Positions 1 to 31,933 of a stretch of 44,126 bases of DNA are shown here, in pieces. The DNA is from a virus. The notes under the pieces were generated by a model. That model saw only the letters and a program-made list of their open reading frames with translations, ran no database searches and was not told where the DNA came from. The translations under genes and the position numbers were made by a program. The stretch lies in IMG/VR virus record IMGVR_UViG_3300005253_000139, positions 1 to 44,126 of that record; one strand, written 5' to 3'. Each line of letters begins with the position of its first letter. Within the stretch, counting starts at the first letter, position 1.

Positions 1-1955
1 ACTCATCAAGCAATCCAGACGGGACGTGGGATGCCTTGACAGGAGGCTCGAATTGGGATGTTTATACTAAATTGATGTTACACGGAGATGGGAGTGATAC
101 ATCTCAAACAATTACTGATGAAGTATCGCATACTGTAACCGCTGTAAATCAGGCACAAATTGATACGGAGTTTAAGAAATTCGGCACAGGTTCAATTCTT
201 TTTGATGGAACAGGTGATTATTTAACCGTCCCTGATAGTGGTGAATGGGATTTTGGGACAGCCAAATTTACAATAGATTTTTGGATAAGGCTCAATACAA
301 CAGATTATATGTACATAATCGGGCAATACGAAGATGGGACTAAATATTGGTTTTTGTCTAAAGATGATAATGGTAAACTTAATTTTGTCGCACTTGATAA
401 CGGTTCCGCTATATCCTTTAACCTGCAATCCACAAACGCATTATTAACATCAACGGGAACTTGGTATCACGTTGCAGTAGTGAGATATGGGACAGGACAG
501 AACAATATGTATATGTTCGTAGACGGGGATTTAAAATCAAATAACTGGCAGGTAACTATGGAAGCTGACGAAAGTATGCCAGAGGTATCATCTTTATTAT
601 ATATTGGTCAGCGTGGCGATAATACTAGTTATATGAATGGATGGCTGGAGGAATTCAGGTTAAGCAAGGGAATAGCTCGTTGGACTGCTAATTTCACTTC
701 TCCGACTTCCGCTTATAGTGGTGGATCTTTTGCTATAACAGCATCCCGTTTCTGGACTATGGCAGACTGGCAATCAGGCAGGGCTTTAATCAATAGCGAT
801 ATAGGATTATACACTTACACGGGGACAGGGGATGCCTCTACTGTTTCTGCGGCTCCCATTGGAAAGTTTTTGATAATCTGGAAAAAATACGCTTTTATAT
901 TCGGTATAAGGGGTTCGCCAAATAACGGTCAATACTCAACTATAAGCGATTATACCACTTGGCCAGCAGGAAACACATTCAGTAATGCCTTTGATACATC
1001 CGATGGGGATGTAATCACAGGGGTAAGGATACTCAAAGGGAAGCTCTATATATTCAAGCGGTATTCCATCTTCAGGATAACCTATCTTGGTTCATCTCCA
1101 GAATTCCAAGTCGATCAAATATCAGGCGTTGGTTGTCCTTCCCATTATATTATCAAGGAAGTGGATATGGGCGGAGAGATAGGGACTGTCCTGATGTTTT
1201 TGACCACTGATAAGAAACTGGCTATTTTTGACGGGTATAACATACAAATCATAAATGATGTTTTAACGGAAGAAACCAATGATTTATTTGCTTCATCTGA
1301 CGATCAGCCATTATCTTTTTCTGATATGAATTTAAGGTATGTAGACTTATTCCACGCAGTAGTGAAAAGCGATACGTCTGAATATATCTTGTATTGTGTG
1401 TTAGGCTTGGATACCTCAGTCGCTTATGGCTTTGTATTTGATTACAGGGTAGGCGGTGTTTATCCCTATGACGGACAGGTTTTTGCAAGCAGTTGTTATG
1501 CCCTATCTACGAATAAATCCAAAAAATTATATTGCACGGGTTACACAGGTTATACTTGGCTTCAGGAGTCGGGGGATGATGATGATGGAACCGATATTAA
1601 CGCCTATTGGGTATCAGGGAAGATAAAAGCCGAAGGGGTAGCTCTCCTTAATAAAAACCTGTTATTGGGGATAAATATTAAAGAGATAACTTCATCTTCA
1701 ACTCTAAATATAGGTATGGAATATCGTTTTGACTGGAATGTATCTTGGATTACCTCTCAAAACTTTAATTTTGACCATAACGACGAATTAGCTTTTGGAA
1801 AGATTAAGGTTTTTGATATAGGGAATATAAATAATATGCTACAGGTTAAATTAAAAGATAATTCAGGAAACCCAGCACCGACGATTTATTCGATAGAATT
1901 ATTTGGAGACCTTCAACCATTGGGAGTTTCAATACAAGATAGGGCGACATCGTGA
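1..1955 (+). CDS. Tail nozzle-like protein, C-terminal part, with a LamG domain
   Basis: This frame is open from the window edge, so the gene starts outside or, if the sequence is circular, at 42704. The first ~230 codons repeat a unit seen at 43500-44126: a linker with NPDGTWDALTGG followed by a LamG/concanavalin-like domain (VPDSGEWDF, FTIDFWIR, TWYHVAVVR, GWLEEFRLSKGIARW). The remainder is all-beta, with YAFIFG, KLAIFDGYNI and a C-terminal VKLKDNSGNP segment, as in podovirus tail tubular B/nozzle proteins. LamG modules usually bind carbohydrate, so the inserted domains could contact host glycans. The stop codon overlaps the next start (GTGA). The nozzle assignment is inferred from position after the adaptor gene and from composition. 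Confidence 0.6.
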   Translation, partial: SSSNPDGTWDALTGGSNWDVYTKLMLHGDGSDTSQTITDEVSHTVTAVNQAQIDTEFKKFGTGSILFDGTGDYLTVPDSGEWDFGTAKFTIDFWIRLNTTDYMYIIGQYEDGTKYWFLSKDDNGKLNFVALDNGSAISFNLQSTNALLTSTGTWYHVAVVRYGTGQNNMYMFVDGDLKSNNWQVTMEADESMPEVSSLLYIGQRGDNTSYMNGWLEEFRLSKGIARWTANFTSPTSAYSGGSFAITASRFWTMADWQSGRALINSDIGLYTYTGTGDASTVSAAPIGKFLIIWKKYAFIFGIRGSPNNGQYSTISDYTTWPAGNTFSNAFDTSDGDVITGVRILKGKLYIFKRYSIFRITYLGSSPEFQVDQISGVGCPSHYIIKEVDMGGEIGTVLMFLTTDKKLAIFDGYNIQIINDVLTEETNDLFASSDDQPLSFSDMNLRYVDLFHAVVKSDTSEYILYCVLGLDTSVAYGFVFDYRVGGVYPYDGQVFASSCYALSTNKSKKLYCTGYTGYTWLQESGDDDDGTDINAYWVSGKIKAEGVALLNKNLLLGINIKEITSSSTLNIGMEYRFDWNVSWITSQNFNFDHNDELAFGKIKVFDIGNINNMLQVKLKDNSGNPAPTIYSIELFGDLQPLGVSIQDRATS

Positions 1956-4858: not shown

Positions 4859-5401
4859 ATGGCTGATTGGCGTGCAGTTCAAGCAGGTTTGGGAAGGGGT
4901 TTTGAGCGAGGCTTTGCCACGGGTGGCAAACTCGGAGGCATAGGTTCTGCCATCAAGAAAGTTGCTAACCGGTTAAAATCCCAACGAGAGACAGGAGAAG
5001 CCCTTGAGACATTGGGGCAGACAGAGGAGATAAAACAAAAGATTAAGGCTAAATACACTCCTACTCCTGCATATAAACCCACGACAAGGGAAGAAGCATT
5101 AGAGTTTGAAAGGGCTAAAGTTGGGATAACCAGACAACCACAGGCGATTGTAGATCCTGAAGGTCAAGTAATTGGAGAAAGACCTTTCGGTTCGGTATTC
5201 CAACCCAAAGAAGATCCTTTTCAGAAGTATTTTTTTGGAGAAGGCGAAGAACCTACATTACCTACCGATAGAAAATCTTTTCTTAAAACTCCTGAAGGAG
5301 ATAGGATTTCAGTAGTTCATCCTGATGGCAGGCGAGGGAATATACCCAAGAGTCAACTACAAGAAGCGTTACAAGCTGGATTTAAAAGGACATCAAGGTA
5401 A
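4859..5401 (+). CDS. Small internal virion protein with GNIPKSQLQEAL motif
   Basis: A 180-residue protein starting just after the HNH gene. The N-terminus is Gly/Arg-rich and basic. The C-terminus (residues ~145-180) reads GDRISVVHPDGRRGN followed by IPKSQLQEALQAGFK, a motif I recognise as recurrent in phage internal or ejection proteins. Its stop codon overlaps the start of the 882-residue protein, so the two are probably co-translated and packaged together. Enzymatic function is not evident. Confidence 0.5.
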   Translation: MADWRAVQAGLGRGFERGFATGGKLGGIGSAIKKVANRLKSQRETGEALETLGQTEEIKQKIKAKYTPTPAYKPTTREEALEFERAKVGITRQPQAIVDPEGQVIGERPFGSVFQPKEDPFQKYFFGEGEEPTLPTDRKSFLKTPEGDRISVVHPDGRRGNIPKSQLQEALQAGFKRTSR

Positions 5402-8049
5402 TGGCGATAGATTTTAGACCTGCAATAGATTTTAGACCAACCACAAAAACTGCGACTATTGATTTCAGGGAAGAAAAGCCCCTTATTAAAACAGCCGCAG
5501 AAAAGGTATCGCCTATTTTAACTGGGATTACTAAAAAGACAAAGAAGGCTCTTTTGGCTCCCCAAAGAATAGTACCAGATTATCTTGCTGGCGAGAGAGA
5601 AAAGAGAGAAGTTATAAAAGAATTCATATCGGCAAAACCAGAAAGACCTTATGCCGTGAATATCGCAGGAGAACTTGGTAAGGAATTGATAGACTTTGCT
5701 TCTCCTGAAATGGTGATAGCCGGGGGATTGGCTGGTGGTGCGGTAAGAGCAGGTATAGGAAAAGTCCTTGCTACTAAAAAGGGATTACAGTTAGCCGAAA
5801 AATATGTACCGACTTTATTGAAAAAACCAATAGCCAAAGTCAAAGAGGCAAGATTACCAAAGCCAAGGGTTAAAGCAAAAGAGATAACAGTAACTCCAAG
5901 CAGGCCTAAACCTATGCAAGTTGGAAAAATAGAAAGAGCTACAATTACAGCGAGTGATGGTTCAAAGATGGTTGTAGAATATAATTTTGATACTCAAAAA
6001 CTACATAATGTAACTCAAAAAGTAACAAAAGATTTAAATCTTAAGGATTATCAAATAATGAAGAAAGCAAGTATAAAAGGCGCTAAAGAACGAGGGCAAA
6101 AACTTATTTTTAAAACTACAGAACTAAAACAACCCATACCACCTAAAGTACCGCTTACTCAAAAAGCTGTGGAATTACCCAAACCTGTCGTAAGTCCTGT
6201 CCAAAAAATAACCCAAGCCATAAAGGAAGCAAAGCCTTTAAGAAAAGAACAGGAAGCATTGTTCACCGCCGAACGTATAAAGAGAGTGGCTCAATTAGAG
6301 AAAGCTGCTAAAGTCGGTGGTGAAGCGGGGTATTTTGAACAATTAAAGGCATTAAAGGGACAATTACCAAAAGCTAAATTTGAGGGCATAAGAGGAAAGA
6401 TTAAGCAACCCGATATTGACTCATTATTTGATATTATAGAAAGAAATCCTGATTTATTACCTTTGGAAAAAATCACTACAAAATCTGGGTTATCAAAATT
6501 ATTAGGTGCGGAAGGTGGTGCTGTTCCCACTAAAGGTGAATTGAAATTACTTGGAGAAATATTCCCTAAAGATTTTGTTAATACAATCTTAACTAAAAGA
6601 TTGTTAGGTGAAAGAGTAGGGGAGGGGATTGCTGATGTCTTAAATGTTCCCAGAGCTTTGATGGCAAGTGCTGACTTATCCGCACCCCTGCGTCAAGGGG
6701 TATTCTTAGTTGGTAGACCAAAGCAATTCGCTCCTGCATTTAGGGATATGTTTAAATACTTCTTTAGCGAAAAATCTTATCAAGGCTTAATGGCTAATAT
6801 AAAGAAAAAATCTACTTATCCTTTGATGAGAAAAAGTAAACTCGCTCTTACTGATATAGGAGCAGGACTTACGGGTAGAGAAGAAGCGTTTATGTCAGGA
6901 TTGGCAGAGAGACTGCCTTTTGGAATAGGCAAAATAGTAAGAGCTTCCGATAGGGCATATACTGGATTTCTTAATAAATTAAGGGCTGATGTATTTGAGG
7001 ATTTGGTAAAATCGGCACGAAAACAGGGAATTAAAGTAGAGGGTAAAGTCCTTAATGATATTTCAAAGTTCATAGGTGCTGCTACTGGTAGAGGAAATCT
7101 AGGTGTATTGGAAAATGCTGCTGTTGCTTTAAATACCATATTTTTCTCGCCTCGTCTTATGGCTTCAAGATTGAGTTTATTAAACCCTGCTTTCTATATA
7201 AAGTTAGATCCGTTTGTGAGAAAAGAGGCGTTAAAGTCTTTATTTACTTTTGCGGGTACTGCTGCTTCTATATTTGGTTTGGCTAAAATGGGAGGGGCGG
7301 AGGTGGGTGCTGATCCACGAAGCGCAGATTTTGGAAAGATAAAAGTAGGAAATACCCGCTTTGATATTTTAGGTGGCTTTCAACAGTATATTAGGGCTGC
7401 TGCTCAAGTTATCACAGGAGAACACATATCTACTACCACAGGGGTAATAACTACTGTAGGCGAAGGATACAAGCCACTAACAAGAATGGAAATTATATCA
7501 AGATTTTTTACCACTAAAGAGTCCCCTGTAGCATCATTTATTACTACTATGTTAAGAGGGAGAACTGCTATTGGAAAAGAGGTTGTGATGGGGGAAGAGG
7601 TAGCTAATCGCTTTACCCCTATGGTGGCACAGGATATGAAAGATTTGTATGATGAAAGGGGATTAGAAGGAATACTAATGGGAATACCCGCTATATTTGG
7701 TGTGGGTGTCCAGACCTACGCCCCAACACCGAGTGAATTAGTCCGTTCTGCTAATTCGGTATTAAAATCTGCCAAGGATTTATTCCAACAAGGAAGATTT
7801 CAGCAAGGAAGAGAACTGATAGACAGAAATAAAGACCTTATTGAAAAAGGTAAATCAGTAGAACCAATGCAGAAGATAATAACTTTCTTCAAGAAACTAA
7901 ATACTAAATTAAAAAAGACTACTATTTTTACACCAGAACAAATAAAAGAAAAGACCGCCTTTAATAATGCAAGAATAGAACAAATGGAAGAAGAAATGAA
8001 GGCGAAGTTGGAAAGTAGTGAGCAAGGGATAGATTTCAGACCAGAATAA
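5401..8049 (+). CDS. Large polyvalent internal virion/ejection protein
   Basis: An 882-residue protein coupled to the preceding gene. The N-terminus carries three short IDFR motifs (IDFRP at residues 3-7 and 8-12, IDFRE near 20) and the extreme C-terminus carries another, IDFRP, one residue before the stop. Residues ~400-620 contain ALMASADLSAPLRQG and long amphipathic helices. Residues ~640-700 contain GADPRSADFGKIKVG and DILGGFQQY, signatures of the huge polyvalent proteins that phages package with DNA. The C-terminus is charged and coiled-coil-like. It is probably injected with or ahead of the genome. No lysozyme or transglycosylase motif is visible. Confidence 0.6.
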   Translation: MAIDFRPAIDFRPTTKTATIDFREEKPLIKTAAEKVSPILTGITKKTKKALLAPQRIVPDYLAGEREKREVIKEFISAKPERPYAVNIAGELGKELIDFASPEMVIAGGLAGGAVRAGIGKVLATKKGLQLAEKYVPTLLKKPIAKVKEARLPKPRVKAKEITVTPSRPKPMQVGKIERATITASDGSKMVVEYNFDTQKLHNVTQKVTKDLNLKDYQIMKKASIKGAKERGQKLIFKTTELKQPIPPKVPLTQKAVELPKPVVSPVQKITQAIKEAKPLRKEQEALFTAERIKRVAQLEKAAKVGGEAGYFEQLKALKGQLPKAKFEGIRGKIKQPDIDSLFDIIERNPDLLPLEKITTKSGLSKLLGAEGGAVPTKGELKLLGEIFPKDFVNTILTKRLLGERVGEGIADVLNVPRALMASADLSAPLRQGVFLVGRPKQFAPAFRDMFKYFFSEKSYQGLMANIKKKSTYPLMRKSKLALTDIGAGLTGREEAFMSGLAERLPFGIGKIVRASDRAYTGFLNKLRADVFEDLVKSARKQGIKVEGKVLNDISKFIGAATGRGNLGVLENAAVALNTIFFSPRLMASRLSLLNPAFYIKLDPFVRKEALKSLFTFAGTAASIFGLAKMGGAEVGADPRSADFGKIKVGNTRFDILGGFQQYIRAAAQVITGEHISTTTGVITTVGEGYKPLTRMEIISRFFTTKESPVASFITTMLRGRTAIGKEVVMGEEVANRFTPMVAQDMKDLYDERGLEGILMGIPAIFGVGVQTYAPTPSELVRSANSVLKSAKDLFQQGRFQQGRELIDRNKDLIEKGKSVEPMQKIITFFKKLNTKLKKTTIFTPEQIKEKTAFNNARIEQMEEEMKAKLESSEQGIDFRPE

Positions 8050-27610: not shown

Positions 27611-27634
27611 CTAAAGACTTTTAAAGGTCTTTAG
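27611..27634 (-). terminator. Hairpin at the downstream edge of the cassette array
   Basis: CTAAAGAC (27611-27618) and GTCTTTAG (27627-27634) form an 8-bp stem touching the last cassette arm. On the minus strand TTTATAG follows, so it may be a weak terminator or processing signal. Confidence 0.4.
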
Positions 27635-28020
27635 CACTTGTAGAGCTGTTTGATGGGAGAGACGGGTTTGAGATTTAATTAAGTTTATAAGCTCGATAAT
27701 CACCCCAGAAATAATTATCTATGGTGTCTAATGTTCCAAATCTATGTCCTCGATGTATTACCCCATATGCTTTAATGCTAAAAATCTCACTTGTTGCATT
27801 ATCTATCATATAAGCCCCTGATTTTCCAATATCAACATAGCTGTATTTTCTTTTAATATGATAGCGAGCAACAGCATTATCCATATTGTCTTGACAGGCA
27901 AGTTTTCTTTCTCTTAATCTTTGCTGCTGTTCTTTTGTAATTTTATCACATAAATCTTTTAATTTCTGTTCCATTTCGCCCTTTCTTTCTGCCTATCCCA
28001 TCAAATAGCCCTACAAGTGC
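27634..28020 (-). repeat. Cassette 5: 25-bp inverted repeat around the 99-residue gene
   Basis: Arms 27634-27658 and 27996-28020 match at 23 of 25 positions (GCACTTGTAG, then TTTGATGGGA ends); in the minus RNA one mismatch is a G-U wobble. The upper arm ends exactly where the next cassette begins (28020/28021). CAGAAAGAAAGGG lies between the arm and the ATG. Confidence 0.85.
27675..27974 (-). CDS. Cassette gene, 99 residues
   Basis: The N-terminal third is helical and charged (EQKLKDLCDKITKEQQQRLR). The rest is strand-rich and aromatic (YHIKRKYSYVDIGKSGAYM, FGTLDTIDNYFWGDYRAYKL). A similar composition is seen in small phage early proteins. No family recognised. Enclosed by cassette 5 arms. 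Confidence 0.5.
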   Translation of the reverse strand: MEQKLKDLCDKITKEQQQRLRERKLACQDNMDNAVARYHIKRKYSYVDIGKSGAYMIDNATSEIFSIKAYGVIHRGHRFGTLDTIDNYFWGDYRAYKLN

Positions 28021-28335
28021 ACTCAAAAGACGATAAAACGCCATGATCTGCTGTTTCTCTGTTGTCTGTTATTTTACGTATGTTAGCATTGCCTCATCAA
28101 TGATACTATCAATCTCACCCTTAGCCCCTTGCCATATAGTAAAGAGGCCACTTGATAGGCGATCCCGGATATTGCGCTTGATCTGCGTATAGTCAACGCT
28201 CATAAATGGGAATGTTGCCTGCTCAAATAGTTCCAGGTGTGTCTGTTCCTTGACATATGCAATGTTTTTCTCCCCTATGGTTTGTAACATAAAAATCCCC
28301 TCTTTCTGATCATGGCGTTTTATCGTCTTTTGAGT
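28021..28335 (-). repeat. Cassette 4: perfect 28-bp inverted repeat around the 73-residue gene
   Basis: Arms 28021-28048 and 28308-28335 are exact reverse complements over 28 bp (begins ACTCAAAAGACG, ends GCCATGATC), with 259 bases between. There is no target-site duplication outside. CAGAAAGAGGGG lies between the upper arm and the ATG. A perfect repeat of this length is not expected by chance. Confidence 0.95.
28069..28290 (-). CDS. Cassette gene, 73 residues
   Basis: Mostly helical (NIAYVKEQTHLELFEQATF, TQIKRNIRDRLSSGLFTIW). No motif recognised. Its downstream region carries the complement of a 17-base sequence in the plus leader (20735-20751). Confidence 0.5.
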   Translation of the reverse strand: MLQTIGEKNIAYVKEQTHLELFEQATFPFMSVDYTQIKRNIRDRLSSGLFTIWQGAKGEIDSIIDEAMLTYVK

Positions 28336-28338
28336 TTA

Positions 28339-28976
28339 TATAGCAAGCCGGAGGGAGAGGCAAAGGCGGTTATGTTTATGTTATTCTTGCGACTTGCCAA
28401 TCCTGTGAATTTTGAAAACAAGCACTAATGTTGTTAGCGTCTTCTTCATATTTAAAAATCTTTGCCCTTGCTCGTTCTCTGATCCATGAGGCACACCTTT
28501 TTGTTATCTTCCACAAATAAATGTTTTCCCCATCATACTTTTTAAATACAATAAACTTTTCTTTTGGGAGTCTCGTCTTCAATGCCTTTTTAAGCAAATT
28601 ATCAAAGGCCGGCGTTTCTCTGTTTTTCTGGCATATATCATAATCCTTGCCTAATCCGGGAAGGTGCCAATCAAAAGATTTATACTCCGGCAAATGTCTT
28701 AATACTTCCAATGCTCTCATATACTTGCTTGAGCCTTGCTGAAAACAGCCACTTTCATATGCCTTAAATATTTCTAATTCCAAAGCATCGTGGCCTTTTT
28801 CTTGAAGTATCTTGCTCAATGAAAAACTTTCGCATTCTTCAAAGGTTCGTGGATAGACATTATTTGAGGCACAAGTGATTAAGACCTTATTTTGATCTAT
28901 CCGGATTTTTCTTATAATCTCATAACTCATTTTATCCCTTTCTTTCTGTCCTTGCCTCGCCCTCTGGCCTGCTATA
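28339..28976 (-). repeat. Cassette 3: 27-bp inverted repeat around the 184-residue gene
   Basis: Arms 28339-28365 and 28950-28976 match at 23 of 27 positions (TATAGCA start, GAGGCAA near the end). In the minus RNA two of the four differences are G-U pairs. Gaps to the flanking cassettes are 3 and 2 bases. Confidence 0.85.
28376..28930 (-). CDS. Cassette gene, 184 residues
   Basis: I place the start at 28930 because AAAGGG lies 6 bases upstream; longer starts would run through the cassette arm. The protein has an N-terminal strand-rich part (IIRKIRIDQNKVLITCASNN) and a helical middle with LPEYKSFDWHLPGLGKDYDI, then a basic C-terminus. A phage early protein of unknown function. Confidence 0.5.
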   Translation of the reverse strand: MSYEIIRKIRIDQNKVLITCASNNVYPRTFEECESFSLSKILQEKGHDALELEIFKAYESGCFQQGSSKYMRALEVLRHLPEYKSFDWHLPGLGKDYDICQKNRETPAFDNLLKKALKTRLPKEKFIVFKKYDGENIYLWKITKRCASWIRERARAKIFKYEEDANNISACFQNSQDWQVARIT

Positions 28977-29015
28977 TCCTTGTGAAGTTTAGAAGAGGCA
29001 GAGAGGTTAAGGGTT

Positions 29016-29174
29016 TTATTCTTCATACAATAAAACATCTCCATAGTCATCAAATGACATATAAATGTTTTCTGTATAATCTTCATCACTGTCCTTTTTA
29101 TTAGTATTGATTAAACGGACTTCATTATCTAAATCTGTATCCAGTAATTTTTTAATCAAGGTTATTACTTTCAT
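29016..29174 (-). CDS. Cassette gene, 52 residues
   Basis: A short acidic frame (LDNEVRLINTNKKDSDEDYT, DDYGDVLLYEE) coupled to the preceding 90-residue gene by ATGA and preceded by GGAGG. Likely a two-strand small domain. Not recognised. Confidence 0.45.
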   Translation of the reverse strand: MKVITLIKKLLDTDLDNEVRLINTNKKDSDEDYTENIYMSFDDYGDVLLYEE

Positions 29175-29443
29175 TTTTTACCTCCTTCCTTAAAGGGCTG
29201 TTGCTTGCAAAATTCTTCATGACAATAATAAAGCCCTAGATGTTCAGCACAATAACCACCACAGGTAGGACAAACAGTATCTTTTATGGGTTTTCTTGCC
29301 ATACACAAAATGGCATCAGGTACATCAGTTTCTTCTAGGACTTTCTTTATTGCTTTTAGTGTCCATTTTTTTGCCTCGTTAGGCAACCCCCATAAATAAG
29401 GTTTTTCTTTTGCCTCTTTACATATTTCTGGTGAGTATAACAT
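29171..29443 (-). CDS. Cassette gene, 90 residues, zinc-ribbon
   Basis: The C-terminus has CPTCGGYCAEHLGLYYC and a further Cys, a likely zinc site; the N-terminal half is helical (NEAKKWTLKAIKKVLEE). Starts at 29443 after AGAAAGAAAGG. Not assigned to a family. Confidence 0.5.
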   Translation of the reverse strand: MLYSPEICKEAKEKPYLWGLPNEAKKWTLKAIKKVLEETDVPDAILCMARKPIKDTVCPTCGGYCAEHLGLYYCHEEFCKQQPFKEGGKK

Positions 29444-29492
29444 ATTTTCCTTTCTTTCTTCTGCCCCTTGTAAACTTCACAAGTTCGGTCAA

Positions 29493-29772
29493 TTATAGGA
29501 TTGTAGCACAGCCAGAAGTGGCGTTAAGTATTTATGACTTAAAACTTTCAATATGTTTGTGTATCCTGTCCTGTCCCTCTTTCATTGCTGTTTCATAACA
29601 GTCTGGACAAGTCATTTTTCCAGTGCCTTCAACCATAGTCCAGTCTGGTTTATTACTTGCACCAATAAAAAAAGATAACCCTTTTTTGGTCTTTCCGCAA
29701 TATTCGCAAATAGTTTTTGTGTTGTCCATTATATCCTCTCTCTCTGTCTCTGGCTGTCTTACAATCCCATAA
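29493..29772 (-). repeat. Cassette 1: 24-bp inverted repeat around the 65-residue gene
   Basis: Arms 29493-29516 and 29749-29772 match at 21 of 24 positions (GGATTGTA and ACAGCCAGA blocks). It is nearest the promoter. GAGAGAGAGG follows the upper arm. Nine bases separate it from cassette 2. Confidence 0.75.
29532..29729 (-). CDS. Cassette gene, 65 residues, zinc-ribbon
   Basis: CEYCGKTKKG near the N-terminus and CPDC near residue 41 form a zinc ribbon; the C-terminus is helical. First gene of the minus early transcript. Not assigned. Confidence 0.5.
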   Translation of the reverse strand: MDNTKTICEYCGKTKKGLSFFIGASNKPDWTMVEGTGKMTCPDCYETAMKEGQDRIHKHIESFKS

Positions 29773-29783
29773 TCAACGCTATA

Positions 29784-29827
29784 AATCTCCGACGCTGTTA
29801 GGCCGTGAGATTATTTGTCGGGTTCAT
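29784..29827 (-). promoter_or_regulatory. Leader peptide overlapping an H-type pseudoknot
   Basis: Minus RNA: AAGGAG, then ATG opening MNPTNNLTA and a TAA stop (29827 to 29798). The same bases can form CCGAC (29817-29821) with GTCGG (29789-29793) and AATCTC (29807-29812) with GAGATT (29784-29789), interleaved as an H-type pseudoknot sharing one G. Translation of the peptide would unfold it, an attenuator-like layout. Confidence 0.45.
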
Positions 29828-29859
29828 ATTTTTATCAACTCCTTTCCTTAACTAGTTAG

Positions 29860-29888
29860 AGTGTATCACACACACACAGCTTTGTCAA
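29860..29888 (-). promoter_or_regulatory. Consensus minus early promoter
   Basis: TTGACA (29883-29888 on the complement), a 17-base GT-rich spacer and TACACT. It drives the leader and cassette array. Confidence 0.7.
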
Positions 29889-29909: not shown

Positions 29910-29937
29910 TTGACAGGGTTTTAGGATGTGATAAACT
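29910..29937 (+). promoter_or_regulatory. Plus early promoter, divergent to the minus one
   Basis: TTGACA (29910-29915), a 16-base spacer and TAAACT. The two -35 boxes are 21 bases apart, so one bound regulator could control both. Confidence 0.65.
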
Positions 29938-29958
29938 AGAGATAAAGAAAATTGCTAT

Positions 29959-30080
29959 CGGACATACTAAGATGGCATTATTTCTGGTGAGTAATACTTC
30001 CAGCAAGTAAGAATACCAAATGCGAAAAGAGGGAAGTGAGATTACACAAACCAGAAGTAATGCCATTTTTTTATTGTCCG
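29959..30080 (+). ncRNA. Long nested hairpin RNA in the initiator leader
   Basis: CGGACA/TGTCCG (outer), ATGGCATTATTTCTGGT (29972-29988) with 30050-30066 (17 bp, one mismatch), and GTAAT-ACTTCC (29991-30001) with GGAAGT-GAG-ATTAC (30032-30045) stack into one long stem. A 7-base T-run follows the middle stem, so it could be a terminator/attenuator or a small RNA. The 428-base gap 29730-30158 holds only this, the promoters, the leader and the outer cassette-1 arm. Confidence 0.55.
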
Positions 30081-31386: not shown

Positions 31387-31400
31387 TATTGGGAGAGATT

Positions 31401-31601
31401 ATGAGGGTAATTCGTAAAGACTGGGATGTTATTAGGCGAGAGTATATCACAACGCCTATAACAATGGATGAATTGTGCGAGAAGCACACTTTGGCACACT
31501 CAACAATGGCATGGCATATGAAGCGAGAACAATGGACAGACAAAAGAAAAGAGCATTGTAAGAGAGTAGATATGAATAGTCTTAAAGGGGATATAGTGTG
31601 A
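31401..31601 (+). CDS. Helix-turn-helix protein, small terminase candidate
   Basis: About 66 residues from the ATG at 31401 (GGGAGAG 4 bases upstream). DWDVIRREYITTPITMDELC then KHTLAHSTMAWHMKREQW has the HTH pattern of phage small terminase N-terminal domains (W-I-Y...LA-KY...S--TL--R---EGW). It overlaps the next gene by GTGA, so the two might together supply the small terminase. The assignment rests on motif and position before the large terminase. Confidence 0.5.
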   Translation: MRVIRKDWDVIRREYITTPITMDELCEKHTLAHSTMAWHMKREQWTDKRKEHCKRVDMNSLKGDIV

Positions 31602-31828
31602 GACTAAAGCTAAACGCCGAGACCCGTGTCGGTTTAAAACTCCAATCTGAAGAGAATTTAAAATTTTTGGCTTCAATCCTTAATAAATCCAAGAATAATA
31701 TAGCCGAATTGACAAAGATAGCGGAGCTGTTAAGAGGCAATGCAACAGAGCGCACAGAAGTACCAGAGAAAGAGAAGCAAGAACGGATCGATCGCTTGAC
31801 TAGATACAGGACAGCGTCGGTAAATTAA
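31598..31828 (+). CDS. Small helical protein, possible second part of small terminase
   Basis: A 76-residue protein starting at GTG overlapping the previous stop. NAETRVGLKLQSEENLKFLA and ELTKIAELLRGNATERTEVP resemble the oligomerisation region of small terminase proteins. Whether this is a separate subunit is unknown. Confidence 0.4.
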   Translation: MRLKLNAETRVGLKLQSEENLKFLASILNKSKNNIAELTKIAELLRGNATERTEVPEKEKQERIDRLTRYRTASVN

Positions 31829-31933
31829 GTAAGGCAGTATGGTTACGAGTAAGTCTATTGGCGTGGTGTTTACAGCCCCTATTGTGTAGTTTACAATAAC
31901 TGCATTATAGGCGGTTAGAACGAAATTAGAGAC

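Follow-up and report, generated by a model that had tools for sequence, protein, structure and literature searches.

Five Consecutive Gene Cassettes Are Each Bracketed by an Inverted Repeat

The window examined here is a stretch of 44,126 nucleotides (nt) of the 47.7-kb IMG/VR virus record IMGVR_UViG_3300005253_000139, a metagenomic contig of an uncultivated phage whose portal protein matches the SU10 portal family and whose terminase has distant relatives in many tailed phages. Its minus strand carries, beside a divergent promoter region, a block of genes that includes an array of five inverted-repeat pairs at 27634-29773; the plus-strand terminase and structural genes begin at about 31 kb. 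The five pairs bracket five consecutive minus-strand cassettes, named C1 to C5, with six genes in all, two in C4 and one in each of the others (Table 1). The cassettes are packed end to end, with 0, 2, 1, and 8 nt between neighbors. Across each gene the two arms lie 230-590 nt apart; they would form a helix of 24-28 bp per cassette and overlap none of the bracketed coding sequences. A first-pass annotation of this DNA had reported five arm pairs, each enclosing one or two minus-strand genes with the arms outside start and stop; all five were recovered, with differences in detail only, such as an offset of 1-2 nt in the C3 arms.

Inverted repeats were scored with 1 for a match and -2 for a mismatch, with the arms at most 1.5 kb apart. 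The five arm pairs scored 28, 19, 18, 17, and 16, and these were the top five inverted repeats of the whole window. Thirty dinucleotide shuffles of the window gave a mean of 0.1 pair scoring at least 16 and none scoring at least 18. Duplex energies within the window were -33.5 to -46.0 kcal/mol for cognate arms, whereas non-cognate combinations were never stronger than -17.4 kcal/mol, in line with the earlier claim that the arms pair within cassettes and differ between them. Arms of different window cassettes were dissimilar and contained no common recognition motif or consensus. A chance origin of the arms was ruled out by the shuffles together with a permutation test at the level of open reading frames (ORFs), described below. 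The arms are far beyond chance and confined to the array.

A Related Phage Repeats the Design with Altered Arms and Other Genes

Fourteen contigs with a related terminase were collected, and only one closely related contig among them, IMGVR_UViG_3300005663_002838 (hereafter L014), extends upstream into the array region. Its terminase is 87% identical at the protein level, and it comes from the same metagenome as the window. L014 contains two complete cassettes, Lb and then La, followed by a gene start that is cut by the contig end. Purine-rich linkers of 14-19 nt precede the ATG of its cassettes, and 11 nt follow the stop.

The arms of C4 and Lb are homologous, with 21/24 identical positions in the 5′ arms and 22/24 in the 3′ arms, but the adjacent 15-nt stretches inside and outside agree at only 4-8 of 15 positions, and the genes within the two cassettes are unrelated. 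The La gene is homologous to that of C1 (47% amino acid [aa] identity), yet the La arms are different and equally well paired. Homology between the C1 and La arms is not claimed, as the 5′ arms were weakly alike (p 0.0075) and the 3′ arms were not (p 0.76). Because C4 and Lb have the same arms around another gene, and La and C1 have the same gene inside other arms, arms and genes are decoupled, while pairing and spacing persist.

From C4 to Lb, both sides of pair 4 have changed, from G-C to A-U; pair 7 has gone from A-U to G.U and pair 14 from C.C to U.G, and pair 18 is G.U in both (as read in minus-strand RNA). All differences between the C4 and Lb arms keep or improve minus-RNA pairing. The first-pass annotation had suggested a search for compensatory changes in related phages and had named uncompensated divergence as the outcome that would speak against it; L014, with its one two-sided change, points the other way. 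A degenerate pattern of the C4/Lb arms was matched in IMG/VR by L014 only.

Predicted Folding and Geometry of the Cassettes

Unconstrained folding of the minus transcript 29857-27600 (2258 nt) predicted all five stems, with 23-28 pairs each in the minimum-energy structure and mean pair probabilities of 0.90-1.00. Thus, in the model each message would be a closed domain, as the first-pass annotation had anticipated. The stem energies also withstood the shuffled controls that it had proposed: the folding energies of the window cassettes had z scores of -4.4 to -6.5, and six control genes from this phage gave -2.3 to +1.3. Over all seven cassettes of the window and L014 the range was -3.7 to -7.9 (Lb, -7.9; La, -3.7). 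When the 70-nt flanks of the cassette genes were treated as a duplex of 5′ and 3′ untranslated regions (UTRs), energies of -46.9 to -55.4 kcal/mol were obtained, versus -22.6 to -29.3 kcal/mol in shuffles. Flank pairing in ten other minus-strand genes of the phage was at the shuffle level or slightly better, by no more than about 1.5 standard deviations.

The position of the arms relative to the genes was nearly constant. In the window, the 5′ arm ends 16-21 nt ahead of the ATG and the 3′ arm begins 12-20 nt past the stop; for all seven cassettes the ranges are 14-21 and 11-20 nt. In all seven, the 5′ linker is purine-rich and holds a Shine-Dalgarno sequence (SD; AGAAAGAAAGG-like) outside the helix, the five window cassettes having there GCAGAAAGAAAGGGCGAA, AGAAAGAGGGGATTTTT, GGACAGAAAGAAAGGGATAAA, AGAAAGAAAGGAAAAT, and GACAGAGAGAGAGGATATA. 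The 3′ linker, from stop to arm, is A/C-rich and G-poor. With this linker geometry, the helices stop just outside the ribosome-binding site and just past the stop codon. Ordinary SDs of the AAGGAG type occur in many other genes of the phage and also in the second gene of C4.

Among the imperfect positions of the seven stems, minus-strand G.U occurred 10 times, A.C (the plus-strand wobble) 3 times, and other mismatches 5 times. The 10:3 ratio of G.U to A.C gave a one-sided p of 0.046, or 0.07 with a shared position counted once, and leans to selection on the minus transcript. Of the six imperfect stems, five (C1, C3, C4, C5, and La) have a mismatch 13-16 nt from the outer end, and Lb has a G.U there; this position, noticed post hoc, could matter for a nuclease.

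Distribution of the Arms and of the Enclosed Gene Families

About 1.35 Mb of phage DNA was searched, comprising the terminase relatives, contigs with C1 homologues, T7, lambda, and a podovirus from Manatee Spring; apart from those of the window and L014, no bracketed gene scoring at least 16 was found. In the ORF-level test, upstream-downstream pairing of at least 13 was seen in 5 of 1909 ORFs, each of which belongs to the window or L014; C3 and C4 are not among the five, probably owing to the choice of start and to the presence of two genes in C4. The array as a general habit of the phage group was not seen in the other contigs with a related terminase. It is rare within the DNA searched, and several near relatives end just upstream of the terminase, exactly where the array would lie.

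The arms are not a property of the gene families. Homologues of C1 in 17 other contigs and of C5 in two (L053 and L054, 75-79% aa identity) are armless, so the genes do not need the arms. The C1 protein family, present in at least 17 other phage contigs, has no Pfam, PHROG, or NCBIfam assignment. No match was found for the C3 and C4 proteins in IMG/VR, for the C1 and C3 proteins in GenBank phages, or for the terminase in GTDB genomes. Rfam gave no match, and NCBIfam and PADLOC gave nothing beyond one sub-threshold zinc-protein match for C5; no cassette gene matched a toxin family.

A 104-aa gene at 5084-5458 of IMGVR_UViG_3300028883_000003 (L078), just after a tRNA-like sequence, is bracketed by a perfect 14-bp inverted repeat and has a similar purine linker (AGAAAGAGAGAAAG). 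This may be an isolated and weaker instance of the design, or chance.

Transcription Signals and Neighboring Features

The array is probably served by one promoter upstream of C5, a TTGACA-17-TACACT site (Table 1). The number of promoter-consensus matches in the promoter scan was not above chance; L014 has a promoter-like site, TTGACA-17-TAGTAT, upstream of its array at 1096-1068. No convincing terminator was found inside the array when the window was scanned. The leader upstream of C5, at 29782-29857 on the minus strand, contains AAGGAG, a strong SD, and may code for a peptide of 9 aa (MNPTNNLTA); it is not conserved in L014. At the other end of the array, a short hairpin adjoins C1 and is possibly an emptied or decayed remnant of a sixth cassette.

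Table 1. Positions of the array elements in the window and of the two complete cassettes in L014 (L014 positions are those of its own contig)
Feature	Position	Strand	Remarks
Probable sigma-70-type promoter of the array	29860..29888	-	TTGACA-17-TACACT, TG ahead of the -10; has a perfect -35 and lies shortly upstream of C5
C5 5′ arm	29749..29773	-	22/25 Watson-Crick with 29492-29516; mean pair probability 0.91 in the full transcript
C5 gene	29532..29729	-	65 aa, two CxxC pairs, zinc-ribbon-like; weak phrog_17873 match
C5 3′ arm	29492..29516	-	
C4 5′ arm	29460..29483	-	Homologous to the 5′ arm of L014 Lb, 21/24
C4 first gene	29171..29443	-	90 aa, Cys/His-rich; no family match
C4 second gene	29016..29174	-	52 aa; overlaps the first gene; own ordinary SD, without arms
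C4 3′ arm	28979..29002	-	Homologous to the 3′ arm of L014 Lb, 22/24
C3 5′ arm	28952..28977	-	23/26 with 28338-28363
C3 gene	28376..28930	-	184 aa; no family match
C3 3′ arm	28338..28363	-	
C2 5′ arm	28308..28335	-	28/28 with 28021-28048; pair probability 1.00
C2 gene	28069..28290	-	73 aa; no family match
C2 3′ arm	28021..28048	-	
C1 5′ arm	27993..28020	-	25/28 with 27634-27661
C1 gene	27675..27974	-	99 aa; homologue in L014 (47% identity) bracketed by different arms; armless homologues in 17 further contigs
C1 3′ arm	27634..27661	-	
Short hairpin CTAAAGACCTTTAAAAGTCTTTAG adjoining C1, after the last cassette	27611..27634	-	TAAAGACCTT in common with the L014 start of the next (cut-off) cassette region
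L014 Lb	arms 702-726/967-991		69-aa gene
L014 La	arms 310-336/674-700		103-aa gene

On the opposite strand, a probable small noncoding RNA lies at 29936-30076 (+) and has a counterpart at 1190-1330 (+) in L014. It has its own divergent promoter, TTGACA-16-TAAACT, and would form a long rod-like hairpin followed by a T-run (folding z -6.1; L014, -4.0). Its motif AATACTTCCANCAAGTNAGA is conserved in L014 and was found nowhere else in IMG/VR, and Rfam gave no match for it. The contig L004, which is 99.5% identical to the window, stops at 30077, exactly at the terminator hairpin of this putative small RNA; several other relatives break off some hundred bases ahead of the terminase, as though assembly were difficult in this region. 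A small-terminase-like gene at 31389-31835 is broken in the window and intact (about 145 aa) in L004, which is nearly the same virus; this difference may reflect strain variation or misassembly.

Discussion

The explanation that we consider probable is an operon of modular self-closing mRNAs, each of which would have its 5′ and 3′ UTRs zipped together by a mutually specific helix of 24-28 bp. The array would be a single operon, made up of small accessory genes of a tailed phage whose portal is SU10-like and transcribed from the minus strand; in the transcript, a private helix would join the 5′ UTR of every cassette to the 3′ UTR of that cassette. The stems would isolate each cistron and leave its SD on a linker outside the helix. 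Host RNase III would then cut the helices, as in pre-rRNA, or the helices would act uncut as barriers. Either way, the products would be messages with paired 5′ and 3′ ends, shielded from end-dependent ribonucleases and insulated from their neighbors. Because each stem is mutually specific and self-contained, cassettes could be gained, lost, or refilled without harm to the others. In this account the stems would form in vivo, be selected at the RNA level, and affect message stability or translation. The cutting step itself we put at a little short of an even chance.

Several points weigh against this explanation. The plus strand would fold nearly as well, so the strand is not told by folding alone, and the wobble bias that leans to the minus strand is marginal. 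The two-sided change between standard pairs counts once, coming as it does from two contigs of one metagenome, and the shuffle control on arm covariation had no power with two sequences. The SD linkers, although outside the helix, are predicted to be partly paired, the mean unpaired probability being 0.44-0.87, and the arms must meet across 230-590 nt while ribosomes translate the loop. RNase III sites are not reliably predictable from sequence. Finally, the homologues of C1 and C5 in other phages do without arms.

A closely allied possibility, which we regard as rather unlikely, is that the stems work without any cutting: intact helices would join the stop codon and SD for re-initiation on the same cistron and would block exonucleases and read-through, with no part for RNase III. 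The geometry suits such a closed loop, as in all seven cassettes the SD linker directly adjoins the 5′ arm on its inner side and 11-20 nt separate the stop from the 3′ arm; because both lie inside the arms, an initiating or terminating ribosome need not melt the helix. The stems, with gaps of 0-8 nt, are also near enough to stack. Uninterrupted RNA helices of 24-28 bp are, on the other hand, expected RNase III substrates in most bacteria. A comparable pairing in an mRNA of Staphylococcus aureus, icaR, is cut: there the 3′ UTR pairs with the SD, represses the message, and creates an RNase III substrate (PMC3868564). Because such helices are expected substrates and the icaR pairing is cut, we weight RNase III processing somewhat above the uncut form. 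Protection by pairing has its own precedent in the Bacillus subtilis hbs mRNA, in which a 14-nt pairing of the 5′ UTR with its own 3′ UTR protects the message from RNase Y (PMC7821165).

The main other rival is a DNA-level origin or role, in which the arms mark borders of recombination or insertion (exchange sockets, invertible segments, or the terminal repeats of small mobile gene cassettes) and owe their lasting complementarity to gene conversion or template switching between them rather than to a function in RNA. The separate histories of arms and genes in C4/Lb and C1/La, the difference of whole cassettes between the two phages, the end of C4/Lb homology at the arm ends, and the perfect 28/28 match of C2 would all agree with it. 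We nevertheless judge it distinctly unlikely. No motif is common to the arms, so that no single recombinase could use them, and the arms of different window cassettes share no site of the kind that segments inverted by one recombinase would have. All seven genes have one orientation and keep SD and stop at a constant spacing from the arms, a regularity for which DNA borders would have no need; mismatches have been retained rather than converted and lean to G.U on the transcribed strand; and homologous C1 and C5 genes of other phages lack such borders. An integron gene-cassette array does not match either, as the arms pair across the gene and not with the neighboring arm, leaving no attC-type palindrome.

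A repressive role, in which the stems silence the messages until they are processed, is suggested by the type I toxin mRNAs hok and AapA, which are likewise whole small-protein messages closed by 5′-3′ pairing (PMC6733600). In those systems, however, the SD is sequestered, an antisense antitoxin is present, and the loci are single, and none of these was seen in the array. In all seven cassettes a purine linker carries the SD outside the helix, so repressive pairing of the toxin type does not fit. The genes match no toxin family, and no antisense antitoxin was seen, sought by promoter scan only; plus-strand promoter-like sites in the array were few and not above shuffles. We hold a repressive role to be highly unlikely. 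Chance or an assembly artifact could be thought of for a metagenomic contig, since L004, another contig of this virus, breaks off at 30077, a short way beyond the array, and assembly was evidently difficult nearby. But shuffles do not reproduce the array, and an independently assembled, diverged relative has the same design; L014 has already largely refuted this idea, to which we give next to no chance.

Compared with known systems, the modular self-closing operon that we favor resembles the processing stems of bacterial pre-rRNA, where RNase III acts on 16S and 23S domains that lie in tandem in one transcript, each with a long helix formed from the flanks of a functional RNA. A long, near-perfect helix for each functional RNA was found in five of five window cassettes and in both complete L014 cassettes. 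The units of the array, unlike those of pre-rRNA, are phage protein-coding cistrons with gene-specific stems. The analogy drawn by the first-pass annotation accordingly stands for the geometry, that is, for tandem closed domains and helices of 24-28 bp, whereas cleavage of the array is putative. The T7 early genes offer another phage polycistronic transcript that is split at double-stranded sites, as would be expected of the array. RNase III sites in T7 are, however, local hairpins lying between genes, whereas the array arms flank the gene at a distance, and our search found no bracketed gene in T7 or lambda.

Complementary 5′ and 3′ UTRs of the same cistron, as in hbs and icaR, were found in the array by the duplex energies against shuffles. 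Pairing within the same message is what the array has in common with hbs, which differs in being one interaction in a single host gene, neither an array nor phage-borne; in icaR the SD is paired, whereas in the array it lies outside the helix. The extended start-associated sequences (ESAS) of cluster K mycobacteriophages are also inverted repeats tied to the translation starts of several small phage genes, but they are 17-bp repeats mostly 4-13 bp apart, upstream of the gene, with a shared consensus (PMC3203893). In the array, 230-590 nt separate the two arms, the gene lies between them, and no consensus is shared, and the ESAS reading was rejected.

The elements of the array thus have precedents in processing stems, in 5′-3′ UTR pairing, and in start-associated phage inverted repeats. 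The first-pass annotation knew of no described phage system in which consecutive mRNAs are each bracketed in this way, and in the open-access literature we likewise found no description of a tandem array of privately closed coding cassettes. It is close to an even bet, in our estimate, that every cistron becomes an mRNA of its own with its ends zipped, the mutually specific helices serving as barcodes that close, cut out, and protect self-sufficient, pluggable RNA modules. If so, a polycistronic phage transcript would be organized like pre-rRNA, with each coding message closed by its own helix, and this would be a new solution for making independent, stable bacterial mRNAs from one promoter. 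It would also help to explain the free exchange of small accessory genes, and would provide a design rule for insulated operons: orthogonal closing stems, a purine SD linker, and an A/C-rich 3′ linker. The two natural versions of the array make it testable whether 5′-3′ pairing can protect bacterial messages without repression.

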